Below are positions 33,818-41,009 of a DNA stretch of 51,142 nucleotides, in pieces. A program made the position numbers and the translations under genes. Position 1 is the stretch's first letter. Every line of letters starts with the position of its first letter. This stretch comes from Planctomycetaceae bacterium (GTDB lineage Bacteria > Planctomycetota > Planctomycetia > Pirellulales > UBA1268): the NCBI GenBank assembly GCA_947449135.1, contig CANFQO010000017.1, positions 1-51,142 on the forward strand, read 5' to 3'. Below the pieces are notes generated by a model, which was not told the origin of the DNA, made no database searches, and was given only the letters and a program-made list of their open reading frames with translations.

Positions 33818-35050
33818 CTAGTAGGCAAGGCCGACACGGAGCATCAGCGTGGACGGAAGATCCTGGTACTGGCCCTGTGGCGGGCCGTCGACGTAGAAGA
33901 GTTGTCGCGCGAAGACGTATCCAACTTCCATGTTGCCGGTGATTCCGTGGCCGGCGACCGGCACAAACTCCGTGCCGAGCGTCACGCGGACGTCGTTGTA
34001 GTCAAAGGGGGAGATGCTGTCGCCGTTGGGGTTGTAGGTTGAGCGGCGGAAGGTCCACGCACCGCCGCCGTACTCGCCGGCGAGATAGCCCCAGACGTTG
34101 CGCTTTCCCATCGTCGTCAGCCGCCGCGTGACCCGCGGTGTCGGGAAGAGAATGTCGTAGCGGGTGTCGGCGTCGGGCGTCCAGGTCACGCCGATCACCG
34201 GCAGCAGCTTCACGAGGTTGCGGTCGAGGTAGACGATGCCTGCCTTACCCTGCACCGTCGGTGTGAGCTGCAGCGTGCCGACGGCGCGTCCCATGAGTCG
34301 CCAGCTCTGCCAGACGAAGACGTCCCAGTTGGTGTAGATGCCGACTCGCACGCCCAGTTCGGCGCCGAAGAGGGGCGTGAACCGCGGGTTCCAGGCCGTG
34401 TCGATAAACACGTCGTAGGTGCTCGCTGGCAGGTCGGCGGTCATCGAGGGGGTCGTCTGCGGACCGTCCCAGAGCTGCAGACCGAAGCCGGGCGTGATTA
34501 GCAGCGGCGCGTGGTTCAGGTTGGCCTGCGAGTTGTGGAAGAACGGCACGGCGAACGTGGCCGTGGTATCGAGCTCATTGACACCGACACTCGTGCCCTG
34601 TCCGTCCCCGAACAGGTAGGCCCAGCTGCCGCGGGCACCCTGATAGAGCCGCATCGTTTCCTGAAACGTGGAGTTTTGCGAGGGATAGCCGGGTGGGAAG
34701 AGCGAGCCGCTCGTGTTCGGTGGTCCCTGCGTTGGAGTGAGCGACGGCGCGGCGGTCGAGTAGCCGGGATAGCCGGGCTGTCCGTTGATCGCCGAGGGCG
34801 CCCAAGTCGACGGGGTGGGCGAGCCCGCGGCGGGCGTGGGAAACACCTGACCCGCCTGCGGCGCGTAGGGATCCCAGGCTGGCGGTGGCGGCAGGGGCGT
34901 GCCAGAGGGCGCTGCCTGCGCGATCCGATCGAGTGAGGAGGCAGCAGGTGGTGGCAGGGCGGCGGTCTGCGCAGCGGCAGGCCGACACCAGCACGCTGCG
35001 AACGTGCCCGTCACCAGCAGCGTCAACAAGAAAAAGAGCTTGGAGCGCAC
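33818..35050 (-). CDS. outer-membrane barrel-like protein, DUF6268 type (copy B)
   Basis: A 410-residue exported protein. A GTG at 35050 starts a good signal peptide (RSKLFFLLTLLVTGTFAACW, cleaved near AAAQ); the longer ATG frame from 35158 is less convincing. Residues about 30-125 are a Pro/Ser/Gly-rich disordered linker. The barrel-like domain follows, with PLLITPGFGLQLW, AGIVYLDRNLVKLLP, GVTWTPDADTRYDILFPTPR and YLAGEYGGGAW, closing in STLMLRVGLAY. It aligns by eye with copy A, but the linker and many loops differ. The 141-base gap to copy A suggests an old tandem duplication, perhaps each with its own promoter. Confidence 0.78.
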   Translation of the reverse strand: MRSKLFFLLTLLVTGTFAACWCRPAAAQTAALPPPAASSLDRIAQAAPSGTPLPPPPAWDPYAPQAGQVFPTPAAGSPTPSTWAPSAINGQPGYPGYSTAAPSLTPTQGPPNTSGSLFPPGYPSQNSTFQETMRLYQGARGSWAYLFGDGQGTSVGVNELDTTATFAVPFFHNSQANLNHAPLLITPGFGLQLWDGPQTTPSMTADLPASTYDVFIDTAWNPRFTPLFGAELGVRVGIYTNWDVFVWQSWRLMGRAVGTLQLTPTVQGKAGIVYLDRNLVKLLPVIGVTWTPDADTRYDILFPTPRVTRRLTTMGKRNVWGYLAGEYGGGAWTFRRSTYNPNGDSISPFDYNDVRVTLGTEFVPVAGHGITGNMEVGYVFARQLFYVDGPPQGQYQDLPSTLMLRVGLAY

Positions 35051-35304
35051 AGCCCACGCCACTTCGGGCGGGGATGAGCCGCCGGAAAAGAACACAGTGC
35101 CGCACTGCAGTACGGCCGACCGGAGTGGGGGGTACCGCGCGTGCCGCGGAAGGGTCAAGGCCGAGCGGCCTGCAGACCGGCCTCAAACCATCGCCAGAGT
35201 GCCGCCCTTGCCCGAACTCCCTGGATAGCGCTGCCATGCCCGCCAAAACAGCTATGGTACCGGTCTTTCCCACGCTCGCTGGTCGCACGTCTATCGTCAG
35301 TCAT

Positions 35305-36123
35305 ATGGAAACGATGAACGAGACATTCGACTTCCCCGACCCGATCGATCCGGCTGCGCTGGTGGCCCATACCGGGCTGGCCACGTTCGAGCACCATGCC
35401 ACCATCGGCTCGACGATGGAGCGTGCCCGGGAGTTGGCATCGCTTCCGGGCTGTCCGCTACCAGCAGCGGTGGTTGCCGATCTGCAGACGCTCGGCCGTG
35501 GCCAGCGGGGTGCCCGCTGGTGGCAGGCTCCCGGCAGTCTCGCGGTGAGCGTGGTGGTCGATGCCTCGGCACCATCACAGGCCTCGCCTCCGGCTGTCTG
35601 GTCGCTGGCCTGCGGCGTGGCGTTGGCCGAGTCGCTGGCGGTGCTCGTCCCGATGATCGAACCGCTGCTGCGGTGGCCCAACGATGTCGAAGTCAACGGA
35701 CGGAAGCTTGCCGGCATCCTGGTCGAGACGACACCCGGCGGTCGGGCCATCTTCGGCATCGGCGTGAACACCACCGGCTCCAGCCACGAGGTGCCGCCGC
35801 CGCTCGACAAAAAGATCGTCACGCTGCCCGACCTGACCGGCTCCATCCTGCCACGGGAATCACTGCTCGCGGAGTTTCTGCCCCGGCTGTTCCTGCTGCT
35901 GGCGGCGACCGCCGACGATCCCGAGGCGTTTGTGCCGCGCTACCGGGCGCGATGCGGCCTCGACGGCCAGCCCGTCACGGTCTTTTCCGGAGACGAACGG
36001 CTGACCGGCATCTGCCGAGGGATCGCGGCCGACGGCACGCTCGTACTCGACACACCAGGCGGCCGTATGCACGTGACCTCCGGCAGCCTCACCCATCCCG
36101 CTGACGTCTGGCGGGGAGACTGA
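35305..36123 (+). CDS. birA: biotin--[acetyl-CoA-carboxylase] ligase
   Basis: A 272-residue enzyme that attaches biotin to carboxylase carrier domains. The biotinyl-AMP loop is GRGQRGARW (about 65-73), preceded by HHATIGSTMERARELA. The central lysine motif is LRWPNDVEVNGRKLAGILVE and the C-terminal SH3-like cap ends in GRMHVTSGSL. There is no N-terminal DNA-binding domain, so it is the monofunctional type, unable to repress bio genes. ATG 35305 is chosen; 35236 and 35314 are alternatives. It converges on the methyltransferase gene with 6 bases between stops. bioF lies at 47835. Confidence 0.95.
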   Translation: METMNETFDFPDPIDPAALVAHTGLATFEHHATIGSTMERARELASLPGCPLPAAVVADLQTLGRGQRGARWWQAPGSLAVSVVVDASAPSQASPPAVWSLACGVALAESLAVLVPMIEPLLRWPNDVEVNGRKLAGILVETTPGGRAIFGIGVNTTGSSHEVPPPLDKKIVTLPDLTGSILPRESLLAEFLPRLFLLLAATADDPEAFVPRYRARCGLDGQPVTVFSGDERLTGICRGIAADGTLVLDTPGGRMHVTSGSLTHPADVWRGD

Positions 36124-36129
36124 AGACCA

Positions 36130-37245
36130 TCACGTGCGGCGAGACCGGAGTGCGACCACACAGACCTCGCGGCCGCCGGTGGAGACCTGGCGGGCCCTGG
36201 GGGCGAAGCCCCAGCCGCGGAATTGATCGAGCCAGCCCGGGAGTTCCTCCGCCCGCGACCAGTCGGGCATCTTGAGCGTGGCGATGATGCCAACGGGCTT
36301 CACGCCGGCGGCGGTGACGATCCTGCCGAGACTTTCGAGCGTGCTCCGAGGGTCGATGTTCATGTCGGCGACGATCCAATCAAAGCCACGAAAGCTCTTC
36401 ACCTTCACGTCACGGGCCCGCATCCGCCACTGTTCGAAGCTGGCGTGCGCCGCCACCCGCTCATCGACGAGTGCTGGATCGATGCCGACGACCGTGAGCC
36501 CAGCTTCAAGCAGTCGCTGGCAGGCGCCTCCGGGCGAGGCGCCGAGTTCGACGGCCCGCTGGCCAGGTCGCAGATCCACACCAAAGGTCGCGATCGCCTC
36601 ATCGAGCTTGAGCCACGCCCGCGATACCTTGTCTGCCGGGAGGTCTTTCTGGTGCATGCCGCCCGGTAGGCAACTCGTGGGTGTGGCGGCCCGATGCCAG
36701 CCCACCCACCAGCGGTCGGCCGTGTCGATCAGGCAGTCGAGCACGAGGTCGCCCGGGCGGGCAGTTGCCGAGAGCCCAGCCGGCTTGTCGTATGCCGACA
36801 GCAGGGCGGCACGGACAGACTGCGAATCGACGTCCGATTCCAGTCGCCGATCGCGGTGCCAGACGTGGATGTTGTCCCACGCGGTATGGGGCACAAGCGA
36901 CCGCATCGCCGCGATGCGTTCCGGATCAGACGCTCCCGATACCTGACCGAGCGAGCGGATCACCGCCCGCGCAAAGACCAGATCGGGGAAAAAGTCATCG
37001 GGAGGATCGCTGCTCCCCAGCCGGAACGTCACCACGCCCCGCCGCCAGGCCGCTTTTGCCACCTCCGGCAGAATCATCTCCTGCCGACGGACGAGGCTGG
37101 CCTCGGCACCACCTTGGCAGGTCGCCAAGAGAAACGTTCCCCGCACGGCGGGGGCGGGGGTCGCCTGTGGATGCTGGTGCGAGGGCCCTTCGCGACCGGA
37201 GCTATGGCTTTCAGATGACGTGCGCTGCATGCCGCAATCGTACAT
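36130..37245 (-). CDS. RlmM/FtsJ-like rRNA 2'-O-methyltransferase
   Basis: A protein of up to 371 residues. The C-terminal half is a Rossmann methyltransferase: SRAWLKLDEA (catalytic-type Lys), AVELGASPGGACQRLLEAG (SAM-binding), FDWIVADMNIDP (Asp) and IIATLKMPDW (Lys), which match the K-D-K part of the FtsJ/RlmM tetrad. The N-terminal half (GTFLLATCQGGAEASL through LVFARAVIRSLG) resembles the THUMP-like region of RlmM, which methylates C2498 of 23S rRNA in enterobacteria. Starts at 37245 or 37230 are both possible and lack a ribosome site. The 5' end abuts the terminator of the upstream microprotein gene. Confidence 0.82.
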   Translation of the reverse strand: MYDCGMQRTSSESHSSGREGPSHQHPQATPAPAVRGTFLLATCQGGAEASLVRRQEMILPEVAKAAWRRGVVTFRLGSSDPPDDFFPDLVFARAVIRSLGQVSGASDPERIAAMRSLVPHTAWDNIHVWHRDRRLESDVDSQSVRAALLSAYDKPAGLSATARPGDLVLDCLIDTADRWWVGWHRAATPTSCLPGGMHQKDLPADKVSRAWLKLDEAIATFGVDLRPGQRAVELGASPGGACQRLLEAGLTVVGIDPALVDERVAAHASFEQWRMRARDVKVKSFRGFDWIVADMNIDPRSTLESLGRIVTAAGVKPVGIIATLKMPDWSRAEELPGWLDQFRGWGFAPRARQVSTGGREVCVVALRSRRT

Positions 37246-37255
37246 TCAAAAAATC

Positions 37256-37291
37256 AGGCCGGCCCGGGCGCCCAAGGGCCCGGGCCGGCCT
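37256..37291 (-). terminator. strong intrinsic terminator of the lysine-rich microprotein gene
   Basis: A perfect 14-bp GC-rich stem (AGGCCGGCCCGGGC and its complement) with an 8-base loop. On the minus strand it is followed two bases later by TTTTTT (plus-strand A-run at 37248-37253), the best rho-independent terminator in the window. On the plus strand only TTTCTCGT follows, so it would work mainly for the minus strand. It ends the transcript of the gene at 37390-37452 before the methyltransferase start. Confidence 0.88.
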
Positions 37292-37329
37292 TTCTCGTCT
37301 GAACGCGGAAAAGGGGACTGGAACTGGCT

Positions 37330-37348
37330 GGCGAAACGATGTTTCGCC
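37330..37348 (-). other. hairpin in the 3' untranslated region of the microprotein gene
   Basis: GGCGAAAC-GAT-GTTTCGCC, a perfect 8-bp stem with a 3-base loop, lies between the microprotein stop and its terminator. It may protect the short mRNA or be part of a small RNA. Confidence 0.5.
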
Positions 37349-37389
37349 CGGTCGAAAGAGCTCCCGAAAGAACTCAATCAACCACCTGT

Positions 37390-37452
37390 TCAGCCGTGGC
37401 CCTTCTTCTTCTTGGCGACCTTCTTGGCAGCCTTCTTCTTCTTCTTCGCCAT
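37390..37452 (-). CDS. 20-residue lysine-rich microprotein
   Basis: The complete product is MAKKKKKAAKKVAKKKKGHG: 11 of 20 residues are Lys, with no acidic residue. The evidence for translation is an AAGGAG site (plus-strand 37461-37466) exactly 8 bases before the ATG. The evidence for independent transcription is the strong terminator about 100 bases downstream. A 263-base region with no gene precedes it. All six other near-identical Lys codons are AAG, as in its GC-rich neighbours. The charge pattern resembles histone H1-like or ribosomal-protein tails and suggests binding to nucleic acid or polyphosphate; that is inference. The same DNA read in the other two minus frames gives Arg-rich and Glu-rich strings that lack starts of comparable quality. 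I do not know a named family for it. Confidence 0.65.
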   Translation of the reverse strand: MAKKKKKAAKKVAKKKKGHG

Positions 37453-37715
37453 TGTGATGGCTCCTTGCCACGAGCACCCGCACTGTTACACGACCATTCC
37501 CCCGGGTGCTCTGTTGGAGGGAACAGTCGACGTTTCGCGTCGCGTCGAGGCGAGCCAAACACCGCTTTTGACACGGTGCGTGGCAACGCTTCATCGCGCT
37601 GCGGACGGTGTTGTGAAGGATGACAGCGAAAACTGTCAAGAGATGTTCGGAATTTTTTTCGAAAAAATTTCGCAGAACGGTCGATGCACACCACCTGCGG
37701 ATGCTGTCCGGACCC
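37453..37715 (-). promoter_or_regulatory. 263-base upstream region of the microprotein gene
   Basis: No gene is visible. It is more AT-rich than the surroundings near 37620-37680. It contains a hairpin (TGACAG/CTGTCA around 37621-37638), a TTGACA -35-like box on the minus strand (plus 37634-37639), and a near-palindrome of T- and A-runs at about 37651-37671. No convincing -10 box is spaced correctly from the TTGACA. The long leader could hold a regulatory RNA structure. Confidence 0.4.
37461..37466 (-). promoter_or_regulatory. Shine-Dalgarno site deciding the microprotein start
   Basis: AAGGAG on the minus strand, 8 bases upstream of ATG 37452. It selects the lysine frame over the two overlapping frames. 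Confidence 0.7.
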
Positions 37716-38951
37716 TTACGCGTGGTGCTTGGCCGTCGCGCGATCGGGTGCGGTCGCATGGCGCTTTGCCCACGCCGTGAGCATGCCGAACTGCGCGGCG
37801 AATTCCTGTTCGTCGACACCCAGCGGGCTCTTGAAGAAGCAGGCAAGCCATCCCAGCGCGCCGTATTCACCGGCACGATGGGCGCGTTCCACTAACCGGA
37901 CGAGATCGAGCACCAGCGGGGCCGCCAGGATCGAGTCGCATCCCTGCCAGGTGAACTGCATCGTCATCGGCGTGCCGAGGAAGCCGCGGAAGTGGATGTG
38001 ATCCCACGCCGTCTTCCAGTCACCGAGGCTCCTGATGTATTCGATCGAGACGTGGGTCTGAGGCGGGTAGCCGAGGATGTCGGCCAGGAGATGGTCCTTG
38101 CTCCGCACCTTGGCCTGTTTGTTCCGCGGGTCATCGAGGACTTTGCCATCCATGTTGCCGAAGATGTTGTGGCCGACCCAACTCATCACCTCCAGATGTC
38201 GCGCCGCGAACATCGGCGCCAGCACGCTCTTGAGTAGCGTTTCTCCGGTCTTGCCGTCGCAGCCGGTGTGGGCGATCTGACGCTGGCGGGCCACCTCCTG
38301 GAGAGCCTCCGGCGTGGCGCCAGTCGACGGCGTGAAGTTGATGTAGGAGGCACCGGCTTCAAAGGCGGCCAGGGCATACAGACTGCTGGCGGGAAGCGGA
38401 CAGGCCCGCGGGTCGTTGAGCAGAGGCTCCAGTTCTGCGAACGACCGCGGGATCGGCAGCGCCGCTGGCGGCTCGGTGGAGGCGACGTTCACCACCACCA
38501 CGTGGCGGAGCCGTTCGGCCGCGGCGAAGGCTTCGATGTCGGCCCGCACGCGGTCGATCGCCTGTCGGGGCGTTTCCACGATGGCAGCAATCGAGTCGTC
38601 AGCCAATTCGCGAATCTTGTCCCCCGCCGCCACGACCGTGCCGGGCCGCAGCCGCGCCTCCGTCTCGGTGAAGTAGTCGGCAGCGTCGTCGAGGAGTTCC
38701 GGCAGGATCGCGCGGCTGTCGGTCCACATGCGGCGGGCCTCGTCGGCCAGCCGGCCAGGACGGATGTCGTGGCCGCCGACGACGATGTCGGCAAAGTCGA
38801 CCAGGTCGAGTCGCGTGAAGGGATCAAGCGCCGTGACGAGTCCCACCGGTTCCATTCGGCCGTGGGCCAGGTTGGCCAGACCCGTGATCGCGGTGGTGGC
38901 CACGCCCCCTTTGGCCCCGATGAGCCACAGACCAATACGGCTGCCTGCCAT
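37716..38951 (-). CDS. ino1: myo-inositol-1-phosphate (inositol-3-phosphate) synthase
   Basis: A 411-residue NAD-dependent enzyme that converts glucose 6-phosphate to inositol 3-phosphate, feeding inositol lipids or compatible solutes. The N-terminal LWLIGAKGGVATTAITGL is the dinucleotide fold. Family signatures are FEAGASYINFTPSTG, GCDGKTGETLLKSVLAPMF, NIFGNMDG, and the C-terminal IHFRGFLGTPMTMQFTWQG with DSILAAPLVLDL. ATG 38951 gives normal bacterial length. It is divergent from the aminotransferase gene, with a 176-base shared region carrying a 16-bp tandem repeat. Confidence 0.92.
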   Translation of the reverse strand: MAGSRIGLWLIGAKGGVATTAITGLANLAHGRMEPVGLVTALDPFTRLDLVDFADIVVGGHDIRPGRLADEARRMWTDSRAILPELLDDAADYFTETEARLRPGTVVAAGDKIRELADDSIAAIVETPRQAIDRVRADIEAFAAAERLRHVVVVNVASTEPPAALPIPRSFAELEPLLNDPRACPLPASSLYALAAFEAGASYINFTPSTGATPEALQEVARQRQIAHTGCDGKTGETLLKSVLAPMFAARHLEVMSWVGHNIFGNMDGKVLDDPRNKQAKVRSKDHLLADILGYPPQTHVSIEYIRSLGDWKTAWDHIHFRGFLGTPMTMQFTWQGCDSILAAPLVLDLVRLVERAHRAGEYGALGWLACFFKSPLGVDEQEFAAQFGMLTAWAKRHATAPDRATAKHHA

Positions 38952-38968
38952 GTGAAGAACTTTCTTGA

Positions 38969-39000
38969 GTGAACGAGGGAGAGGGTGAACGAGGGAGGGA
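38969..39000. repeat. 16-bp tandem repeat in a divergent promoter region
   Basis: GTGAACGAGGGAG occurs at 38969-38981 and again at 38985-38997, a period of 16 bases. It lies 17 bases upstream of the inositol synthase start and could be a paired regulator site or a simple duplication. Confidence 0.5.
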
Positions 39001-39127
39001 AGGCGACAGGTTTCTGGCGGGAAGGAGCAGTCAAACAGCTGGGAAACCGACCGACGGGTGGTATCATTCTGGTCACGTGCCAACGCGTCAAGCAACCAAA
39101 GAGCATCCGAAAGGCCGCATCACCATC

Positions 39128-40327
39128 ATGGAGTCTTCCCGCAGCCTGCATCTGGCCCAGCGCATGCGAGCGCTCGAGCCGTCCGCCACGCTCGCCATGG
39201 CCGCCCGCGCCTCGAGTATGGCTGCCGCCGGCATCAATGTCGTCGATCTCTCGGTCGGCGAGCCCGATTTCCCCACGCCGCTCCATATCTGTCAGGCCGC
39301 CGAGGCGGCGATCCGTGCCGGGAAAACCAAATACACCCCCGCGGCGGGTATCCCCGATCTCCGCAAGGCGGTTGCCGCCGACTACTCCCGCCGCACGGGT
39401 CTGGCCGTGACGCCCGCGCAGGTGGTTGTCTCCAACGGTGCCAAGCACTCGCTCCATAACGCGTTCACGAGCTTGCTCAACGAGGGGGATGAGGTGATCG
39501 TGCCGACGCCCTATTGGGTGAGCTATGCGGAGCTGATCAAGCTGGCCGGCGCGAAGCCGGTGCTGCTCTCCACGCGGATCGAAGACGACTTCAAGCTGCG
39601 GCCGGAGGCTCTGCGGGCGGCCATCACGCCCGCCACGCGGATGCTCCTGCTCTGCACGCCGAGCAACCCGACCGGCGTGGTCTACTCGGCCGACGAACTG
39701 CGGGCCTTGGCCGACATCGCCATCGAGGCCGATCTCGCGGTCGTGTCGGATGAGATCTACGACCAGCTGGTGTTTGACGGTCAGCAGGCGGTGTCGTTTC
39801 CGACACTGCGGCCGGGGCTCGAGTCCCGCACGGTGGTCGTGGCCGGTGTGAGTAAGACCTATTCCATGACCGGCTGGCGGATTGGCTGGACGATCTGCCC
39901 GGAGCCGCTGGCCAAGGCGATCGGCAACCTGCAGAGCCAGGAGACGAGCAATCCCTGCAGCGTCAGCCAGCATGCGGCGGTGGCCGCGCTGACGGGCCCG
40001 CAGGAGTGCGTGGCTGAGATGTGCCGGGCCTTCGAAAAGCGACGCGATCTGGTGGCGGCACGGCTCTCGGCCATTCCGGGCGTGCGGCTGCCGCGGATCG
40101 GCGGCGCGTTCTATGCCTTCTTCGACATCCAGCCGGCGCTGGCGAAGGGAAAGAACGGCATCACCAACAGCATGCAGTGGTGCGAGTCGCTCCTGGAAAA
40201 AGAACATGTCGCGCTCGTGGCCGGCAGCGCGTTTGGCGCCGAAGGGCACGTACGGATGTCGTTTGCCGCGTCGGAAGAAAAGCTGGGCGAAGGGCTCGAC
40301 CGGATCGCCCGCTTCCTGGGCGCGTGA
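39128..40327 (+). CDS. aspartate/aromatic aminotransferase family (class I PLP)
   Basis: A 399-residue PLP enzyme of fold type I, close to bacterial aspartate/prephenate aminotransferases of the I-gamma group. Signatures are DLSVGEPDFPTP, KYTPAAGIPDLR, SNGAKHSLHNA, PTPYWVSY, CTPSNPTGVVY, SDEIYDQLVFDG and the Schiff-base Lys in VSKTYSMTGWRIGW; a C-terminal Arg is in GHVRMSFA. It transfers the amino group of aspartate to 2-oxoglutarate or prephenate. ATG 39128 is chosen because the sequence before it is unlike the family. Confidence 0.94.
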   Translation: MESSRSLHLAQRMRALEPSATLAMAARASSMAAAGINVVDLSVGEPDFPTPLHICQAAEAAIRAGKTKYTPAAGIPDLRKAVAADYSRRTGLAVTPAQVVVSNGAKHSLHNAFTSLLNEGDEVIVPTPYWVSYAELIKLAGAKPVLLSTRIEDDFKLRPEALRAAITPATRMLLLCTPSNPTGVVYSADELRALADIAIEADLAVVSDEIYDQLVFDGQQAVSFPTLRPGLESRTVVVAGVSKTYSMTGWRIGWTICPEPLAKAIGNLQSQETSNPCSVSQHAAVAALTGPQECVAEMCRAFEKRRDLVAARLSAIPGVRLPRIGGAFYAFFDIQPALAKGKNGITNSMQWCESLLEKEHVALVAGSAFGAEGHVRMSFAASEEKLGEGLDRIARFLGA

Positions 40328-40367
40328 ACGCGGCGCAGCGGGTTGCTCGACATCCGGCGGCTGTGTG

Positions 40368-40403
40368 CTAGAGCGCAAGTGCCCGCTAGAGCGCCAGTGC
40401 CCG
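40368..40403. repeat. 18-bp tandem duplication of the end of the DUF1080 gene
   Basis: Units at 40368-40385 and 40386-40403 are identical apart from one base. The second unit encodes the last five residues and stop of the DUF1080 gene (minus strand, RALAL-stop), and the first repeats them just after the stop, with a second TAG. Confidence 0.75.
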
Positions 40404-41009
40404 CAGGTCGCGGAATTCGACTTTCATCATCACGCCACGATGGATCTGCAAGCCGATCGGACCGGGCTCCGCATACGTGGCATCCTTGTACTGCGAGACC
40501 TGCTCGCCGTTGAGCCAGACAGTGAAGGTGTCCCCTTTCGCCTCCAGCCGGATCCGGTTCCATTCGCCGGCCTTGAGCAGTTCGGCGGCCCGCGGCGCCC
40601 GGGCCTCCTCCGGATACTTTCCGGTATAGAAGGAGCAGGTCATGTCACGCTTGAGGCTTCGCGACACGCCGATCTGCAACTGCAGTTCCGGCTTCCGGAC
40701 CATGATGCCGCTGTCGATGTCACCGCCGAAACGCACCTCCCCCTCCACGACCAGATCGCCATACGCCTGTTCGGTATAGAGCATCGAGCCCTGCTTCGCC
40801 TCGTCGCTCTGACCTACGAGCACGCCGTCGACGACCTTCCAGTAGGGTTCGGCCGGCACCTGCCAGCCCGTCAGGTCGCGGCCATTGAAGATCGACGGCA
40901 GGCTGGCGGTCGGCAGCACATCTGCGGCCCACGTGGGCATGTGGGCGAAAGCCACGCCGAGGCTGGCAACGACGAGCAGTCCAACAGTTCGGAGCGTGGA
41001 TGCAGGCAT
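40386..41009 (-). CDS. DUF1080 (3-keto-disaccharide hydrolase-type) lectin-fold protein
   Basis: A 207-residue secreted protein. The signal peptide (RTVGLLVVASLGVAFAHMPTWA) ends near residue 28. The DUF1080 domain follows: FNGRDLTGWQVP, YWKVVDGVLVGQ, YGDLVVEGEVRFGGDIDSGIMVR, then WNRIRLEAKGDTFTVWLNGE and GPIGLQIHRGVMMKVEFRDL. This jelly-roll (concanavalin-like) domain is hugely expanded in Planctomycetota; characterised relatives act on 3-keto-glycosides. No operon partner is evident. The gene terminates in an 18-bp duplication. Confidence 0.92.
   Translation of the reverse strand: MPASTLRTVGLLVVASLGVAFAHMPTWAADVLPTASLPSIFNGRDLTGWQVPAEPYWKVVDGVLVGQSDEAKQGSMLYTEQAYGDLVVEGEVRFGGDIDSGIMVRKPELQLQIGVSRSLKRDMTCSFYTGKYPEEARAPRAAELLKAGEWNRIRLEAKGDTFTVWLNGEQVSQYKDATYAEPGPIGLQIHRGVMMKVEFRDLRALAL

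Follow-up and report, generated by a model that had tools for sequence, protein, structure and literature searches.

We have identified a free-standing gene unit for a 20-residue, lysine-rich protein in a 51,142-nucleotide stretch of DNA from a Planctomycetaceae bacterium of the order Pirellulales (assembly GCA_947449135.1, contig CANFQO010000017.1; the whole stretch is called the window, and its positions are used throughout). The unit is a real gene with a coding signature, and it carries, ahead of its ribosome site, a leader RNA whose pseudoknot is strongly supported by covariation among aligned sequences and which looks like a regulatory class not described before. Since a lysine-rich open reading frame (ORF) follows every leader found in the order outside the home family, the microprotein is best read, from sequence comparison, as being among the most reduced members of a lysine-rich family that extends across the order and spans 18 to about 124 residues. 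We consider the chances about even that the product is a polycation compacting nucleic acid and that the pseudoknot provides translational control in cis, probably autogenous.

The coding region and its leader comprise the following features.

37390 to 37452, minus strand: ORF MAKKKKKAAKKVAKKKKGHG, 20 codons and a TGA stop, varying among relatives by in-frame length changes only and mostly by third-position substitutions, with lysine codons AAG 310 to AAA 6
37461 to 37466, minus strand: Shine-Dalgarno sequence AAGGAG, within the conserved AAGGAGCCA, 8 nucleotides 5' of the ATG
37491 to 37529, minus strand: helix P1, 5' strand 37529 to 37518 (CGACTGTTCCCT) and 3' strand 37502 to 37491 (GGGGAATGGTCG), 12 pairs, 10 of them changed on both sides in 50 sequences
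37472 to 37511, minus strand: helix P2, 5' strand 37511 to 37503 (GAGCACCCG) and 3' strand 37480 to 37472 (CGGGTGCTC), 9 pairs, 7 of them changed on both sides
37448 to 37461, minus strand: small start-codon hairpin P3, GCCAT (37461 to 37457) with ATGGC (37452 to 37448), less supported than P1 and P2
37448 to 37541, minus strand: whole leader RNA element, matched by covariance model R3 at E = 1e-15, single copy

An earlier note on this DNA had proposed an independent gene, and a candidate for an undescribed family, around a 20-residue, 55% lysine ORF with AAGGAG at ideal distance and a 263-base upstream region, and this description holds. The ORF (37452 to 37390) encodes 11 lysines in 20 residues, no serine, proline or arginine, and a charge of about +11 to +12; its ribosome site occupies 37466 to 37461, the upstream gap is indeed 263 nucleotides, and the single-copy gene has its own promoter, leader and terminator. 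We found it in 59 of 66 sampled genomes of the family, across 12 genera. Searching 72 family genomes with a strict back-translated pattern recovered the ORF, in the same position, from 41; the reversed pattern matched in none, which bears out the note's view that these gene signals exceed chance; adding the ribosome site and its variants to the search recovered the ORF in nearly all. Five parts of the unit are conserved: the promoter, an H-type pseudoknot of about 80 nucleotides, AAGGAGCCA, the ORF and the terminator hairpin.

The family ORFs vary as coding sequence does. Across the first 16 codons, which all of them share, codon positions 1, 2 and 3 have 1, 3 and 5 variable sites, every length change is a multiple of three, and lysine is written almost uniformly as AAG. 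Products are 18 to 27 residues long in most genera, and genera g6 and g11 hold in-frame, repeat-lengthened forms, mostly of 48 to 65 residues (for example MAKKKVAKKKVAKKK...GHA). Repeats of the KKKVA/KKKAA type run in frame through the lengthened loci (L061, L114, L115 and L117 in g11; L100 to L103 in g6); L116, at 32 residues, ends at a contig edge and so is not full length. Because the ORF is very short and of low complexity, one might take it for a chance frame in the gap that separates ino1 from an FtsJ-like gene, or for a leader peptide of a neighbour. Its conservation as a coding unit refutes this idea, its own terminator divides it from the downstream gene, and the unit is unchanged in genera that have no adjacent ino1, so that we regard the idea as vanishingly improbable.

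About 80 nucleotides 5' of the Shine-Dalgarno sequence are conserved in the family, and within them P2 interleaves with P1. Taking P1, P2 and P3 together, 92.8% of cells in 50 sequences are paired, and 17 pairs, in 122 cells, have changed on both sides; none of 500 shuffles reached any of these measures, and sliding the partners by one to three columns gave at most 24 such cells. Two interleaved, covarying helices place the leader in the structural class of H-type pseudoknots at the ribosome site, the end of the P2 strand lying some 5 to 10 nucleotides ahead of the Shine-Dalgarno sequence. P3 pairs in 96% of family cells with no two-sided changes, and among 55 relatives from the rest of the order 50 retain its GCC/GGC complementarity. 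AGGAG is identical in all 50 family leaders and throughout a 39-sequence alignment of the order; GCCA follows it, which is not the common context here, as just 2 of 65 control genes from these genomes have CCA after GGAG. One candidate switch partner, a hairpin with the Shine-Dalgarno sequence in its loop (GUGGC-AAGGA-GCCAU), was rejected, its covariation not exceeding that of controls.

The same topology recurs in 12 further families of the order. Covariance model R1, built mostly from family leaders with two from family f7, extended the reach to further families, and model R3, built from 39 leaders, was applied to 296 genomes of the order at E <= 0.001; 118 of them, from 46 genera and 13 families, contain the leader. 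No genome has it at a second place, save one that is split over two contigs, and the window's own genome holds no second R3 match at E <= 1. In a geometry search of 55 relatives outside the family, the real sequence beat all 30 of its shuffles in 43 (mean score 38.1 vs 15.9); strict geometry gave no pseudoknot in L246.

At every one of the 59 places beyond the home family, the leader is followed by a lysine-rich ORF (25-56% lysine) of 32 to about 124 residues where complete. As 30 of these genomes were absent from the training alignment, the association of leader and protein is an independent result. The repeats in these relatives are mostly KKSPKKKAAKK, KRSPKK or KKSTKKK, of the SPKK/STKK type found in histone H1 tails. 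In one genome (G157, L273) the leader is present but the lysine-rich ORF stops after 15 residues, relatives in the same genus having 80-82; L290 and L231 lie at contig ends. Leaderless lysine-rich proteins exist in the order too: two ORFs with MAKKK starts and good Shine-Dalgarno sequences (L067, 171 residues; L075, 63 residues) have no pseudoknot leader.

Among 397 genomes of the class, leader matches occurred in no order but the window's own, and a sample of 342 genomes from the phylum gave only noise beyond it; because the filters in these scans were strict, weak distant copies could be missed. First-model hits L239, L249, L250 and L252 and phylum hits L256 to L260 were rejected as noise, no lysine-repeat ORF following them; L257 precedes a non-repetitive, basic protein of 90 residues.

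The favoured mechanism begins with the product. The 20-residue polycation would bind DNA and/or RNA by charge and, once bound, would help nucleoid compaction. From the H1-tail-like SPKK repeats of relatives across the order, we infer that roles in the nucleoid or in RNA binding, both named in the earlier note, fit the peptide best; nothing was found that points to its further suggestion of a counter-ion for polyphosphate. The pseudoknot and the start-codon hairpin may then control translation in cis, and the most likely signal would be the product itself, in autogenous feedback like that of proteins which repress their own messenger RNA (mRNA) at a pseudoknot. E. coli rpsO with S15, the alpha operon with S4 and T4 gene 32 are autogenously controlled mRNAs with pseudoknots. 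They resemble the present case in having a nucleic-acid-binding product, in being limited to a single gene or operon, and in placing a pseudoknot at the ribosome site within their own 5' untranslated region; they differ in lacking any sequence relation to it, and autoregulation of the present gene is suggested by this analogy.

Planctomycetes are known for condensed nucleoids, and to our knowledge few of their architectural proteins are known. The lysine-rich proteins look, from their sequences, like an undescribed family of RNA-regulated DNA- or RNA-binding proteins: a defined group of H1-tail-like members that reaches down to 18 residues, below the reach of gene callers, and that the conserved leader makes findable. 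The tie between this leader and one protein type also yields a specific, testable hypothesis, autogenous control by a polycation.

The leader might instead be a metabolite- or ion-sensing riboswitch, in which the pseudoknot would gate the ribosome site in response to a bound small molecule or ion. SAM-II, SAM-V and preQ1-II riboswitches likewise have an H-type pseudoknot right at the ribosome site, and both the topology and the position of the helix end match translational pseudoknot riboswitches (SAM-V: PMC6061858). The present leader differs in a P1 of up to 12 base pairs and in having no metabolic gene attached; it precedes a single gene type, once per genome, its loops are not as strongly conserved as a ligand pocket would need, and it has no Rfam match. 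We consider this explanation unlikely. As the leader is single copy and tied to one product type, product-specific control would suit it better than a metabolite switch.

A constitutive role is also conceivable, the pseudoknot serving as a 5' stabiliser or translation enhancer that, with a strong promoter, gives high, unregulated output of an abundant architectural protein. The strong TTGACA promoter, strong Shine-Dalgarno sequence, uniform AAG codons and insulated unit are all consistent with it. However, AAGGAGCCA is conserved over an extended stretch, and together with the GCC/GGC hairpin at the start codon this suggests control of initiation and not stability alone, and we find a purely constitutive role doubtful.

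Several points weigh against polycation binding with feedback at the pseudoknot. Binding by so short a peptide, 20 residues with a charge near +11 to +12, may be weak at the salt levels of the cell, and autogenous control is argued by analogy; expression, binding and compaction are themselves predictions from sequence. Nested folding of the window leader alone gives z = -0.34, no better than shuffles, with a nested model that cannot represent a pseudoknot, an outcome to be anticipated for such a fold. In addition, a plain protein-coding gene does not account for the frozen sequence of the terminator. A more ambitious scheme would address the whole order: the leader would sense nucleoid state through free polylysine H1-tail-like protein or a linked ligand and so set synthesis of that protein, and in one family the protein would have shrunk to about 20 residues while the mRNA acquired a further function in trans, exerted by the unvarying 3' hairpin. 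We hold this scheme only tentatively, as an improbable whole.

Database searches place the unit close to no described family. At gathering thresholds the window had no Rfam matches (Downstream-peptide, SAM-II/V, preQ1-II and tmRNA included), and a permissive scan of 37200-37760 gave only sub-threshold matches to unrelated families; a sobemovirus frameshift RNA, on the plus strand over the terminator stem, was rejected at 26 against a cut-off of 55. The microprotein had no Pfam or NCBIfam match. The relatives share with HC2 (PF07382) and the Burkholderia H1-like family (NF038053) lysine- and alanine-rich, proline- and serine-containing repeats like those of the H1 C-terminal tail. They nevertheless fall far under the cut-offs for membership, a 65-residue relative scoring 14.8 against 40 for HC2 and another 15.1 against 80 for NF038053.

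In the literature that was searched, neither the leader RNA nor the lysine-rich protein family was found described. The nearest precedents in kind are the Downstream-peptide and glnA RNA motifs (RF01704, RF01739; Weinberg 2010, PMC2864571), structured 5' untranslated regions before a short (17-100 residues) conserved ORF of no known family that shows synonymous changes and in-frame indels. The present leader and ORF share these traits, a likeness and not membership. Those motifs are cyanobacterial and marine, not from Planctomycetes, and the glnA kind also precedes nitrogen genes, whereas the present leader precedes one gene type, whose peptide is a lysine-rich polycation. Rhodopirellula-1, a probable cis-regulatory RNA of Planctomycetes and Proteobacteria with no Rfam number (PMC2864571), could be compared by description only; it extends to Proteobacteria, whereas the present leader is found in one order, and the two may yet be identical.

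The outer parts of the unit and its neighbours are as follows.

37610 to 37643, minus strand: conserved element TCTCTTGACAGTTTTC-N6-ATC-N2-TCACAAC, putative promoter
37651 to 37670, minus strand: A/T-rich tract just upstream of the -35, possibly UP-element-like or the end of the ino1 terminator
37248 to 37301, minus strand: conserved 3' block CAGACGAGAAAGGCCGGCCCGGGCCCTTGGGCGCCCGGGCCGGCCTGATTTTTT, an intrinsic terminator with its stem at 37291 to 37256
37716 to 39095, minus strand: myo-inositol-1-phosphate synthase gene (ino1), context outside the unit, the upstream neighbour, not adjacent in some genera
36130 to 37245, minus strand: FtsJ-like (RlmM-like) methyltransferase gene, context, the downstream neighbour in the family genomes examined

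The promoter element has its -35 hexamer, TTGACA, at 37639 to 37634 and a putative -10, CACAAC, 18 nucleotides further. At least 38 of the 54 upstream regions from the family contain it, as does an alignment of 14 representatives; the window's own genome has no other copy, even with 3 mismatches. Being near-invariant across genera and unique in the genome, its sequence suggests reading by a dedicated regulator or sigma factor. At L030 the element immediately adjoins the leader, so transcription there would probably start just ahead of P1. A/T-rich tracts lie at the same place as the window's in many relatives.

At the other end, the 14-pair stem with T6 that the earlier note had called the best intrinsic terminator in the window is confirmed as the best of 8 terminator-like sites within 34000-41000, the range scanned (3.2 expected from shuffles). 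The 3' hairpin block (37248-37301; L129-L189) is near-invariant across about 60 species, though terminators usually drift. Across 62 copies, a set partly chosen by exact hairpin match, identity is 94% or more at almost all positions of the block, against 40-60% in its flanks. In each of 8 genomes checked the block (CAGACGAGAAAGGCCGGCCCGGGCCCTTGGGCGCCCGGGCCGGCCTGATT) occurs once, and where leader-selected family loci extend far enough downstream it is nearly always there, L036 being one base off. Among 84,980 species genomes it was found in 61 stretches, in Planctomycetes records only; the labels Kuenenia or Planctomicrobium on some of these look like submitter names and not real placement. In other families, the terminators that were recognised have just the base of the stem, AAGGCCG...CGGCCTT, in common with it.

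Such constancy raises the alternative of a dual-function RNA, in which the family transcript would act mainly as a small RNA that interacts through the frozen 3' hairpin (CAGACGAGAAAGGCC...) and yields the peptide as a minor or additional product. The near-frozen, single-copy block amid varying flanks and the reduction of the ORF to 18-27 residues in most genera are consistent with it. The ORF, however, retains its frame, start, lysine/alanine/valine composition and coding-type substitutions, it has lengthened in frame in two genera, and in other families the terminator varies and the protein persists. The earlier note had taken hairpins conserved without the peptide as the sign of a small RNA; peptide and RNA are both conserved here, and we judge an RNA-first transcript quite improbable. 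The frozen promoter and frozen terminator hairpin are additional puzzles. Terminator invariance, the conserved promoter, the 5' pseudoknot and the link to longer lysine-rich proteins had all escaped the earlier note. Its second hairpin between ORF and terminator, GGGCGAAAC-AUC-GUUUCGCC, does exist, but was seen in the genus only.

Linkage to the FtsJ/RlmM gene is constant among the family genomes examined, and none was seen elsewhere in the order. Since ino1 is absent beside the microprotein gene in some genera, the gene is not an appendage of ino1. At L132, L134, L142 and L177 an aminotransferase gene stands in its place, and in the genomes of L132 and L134 ino1 sits on a different contig.
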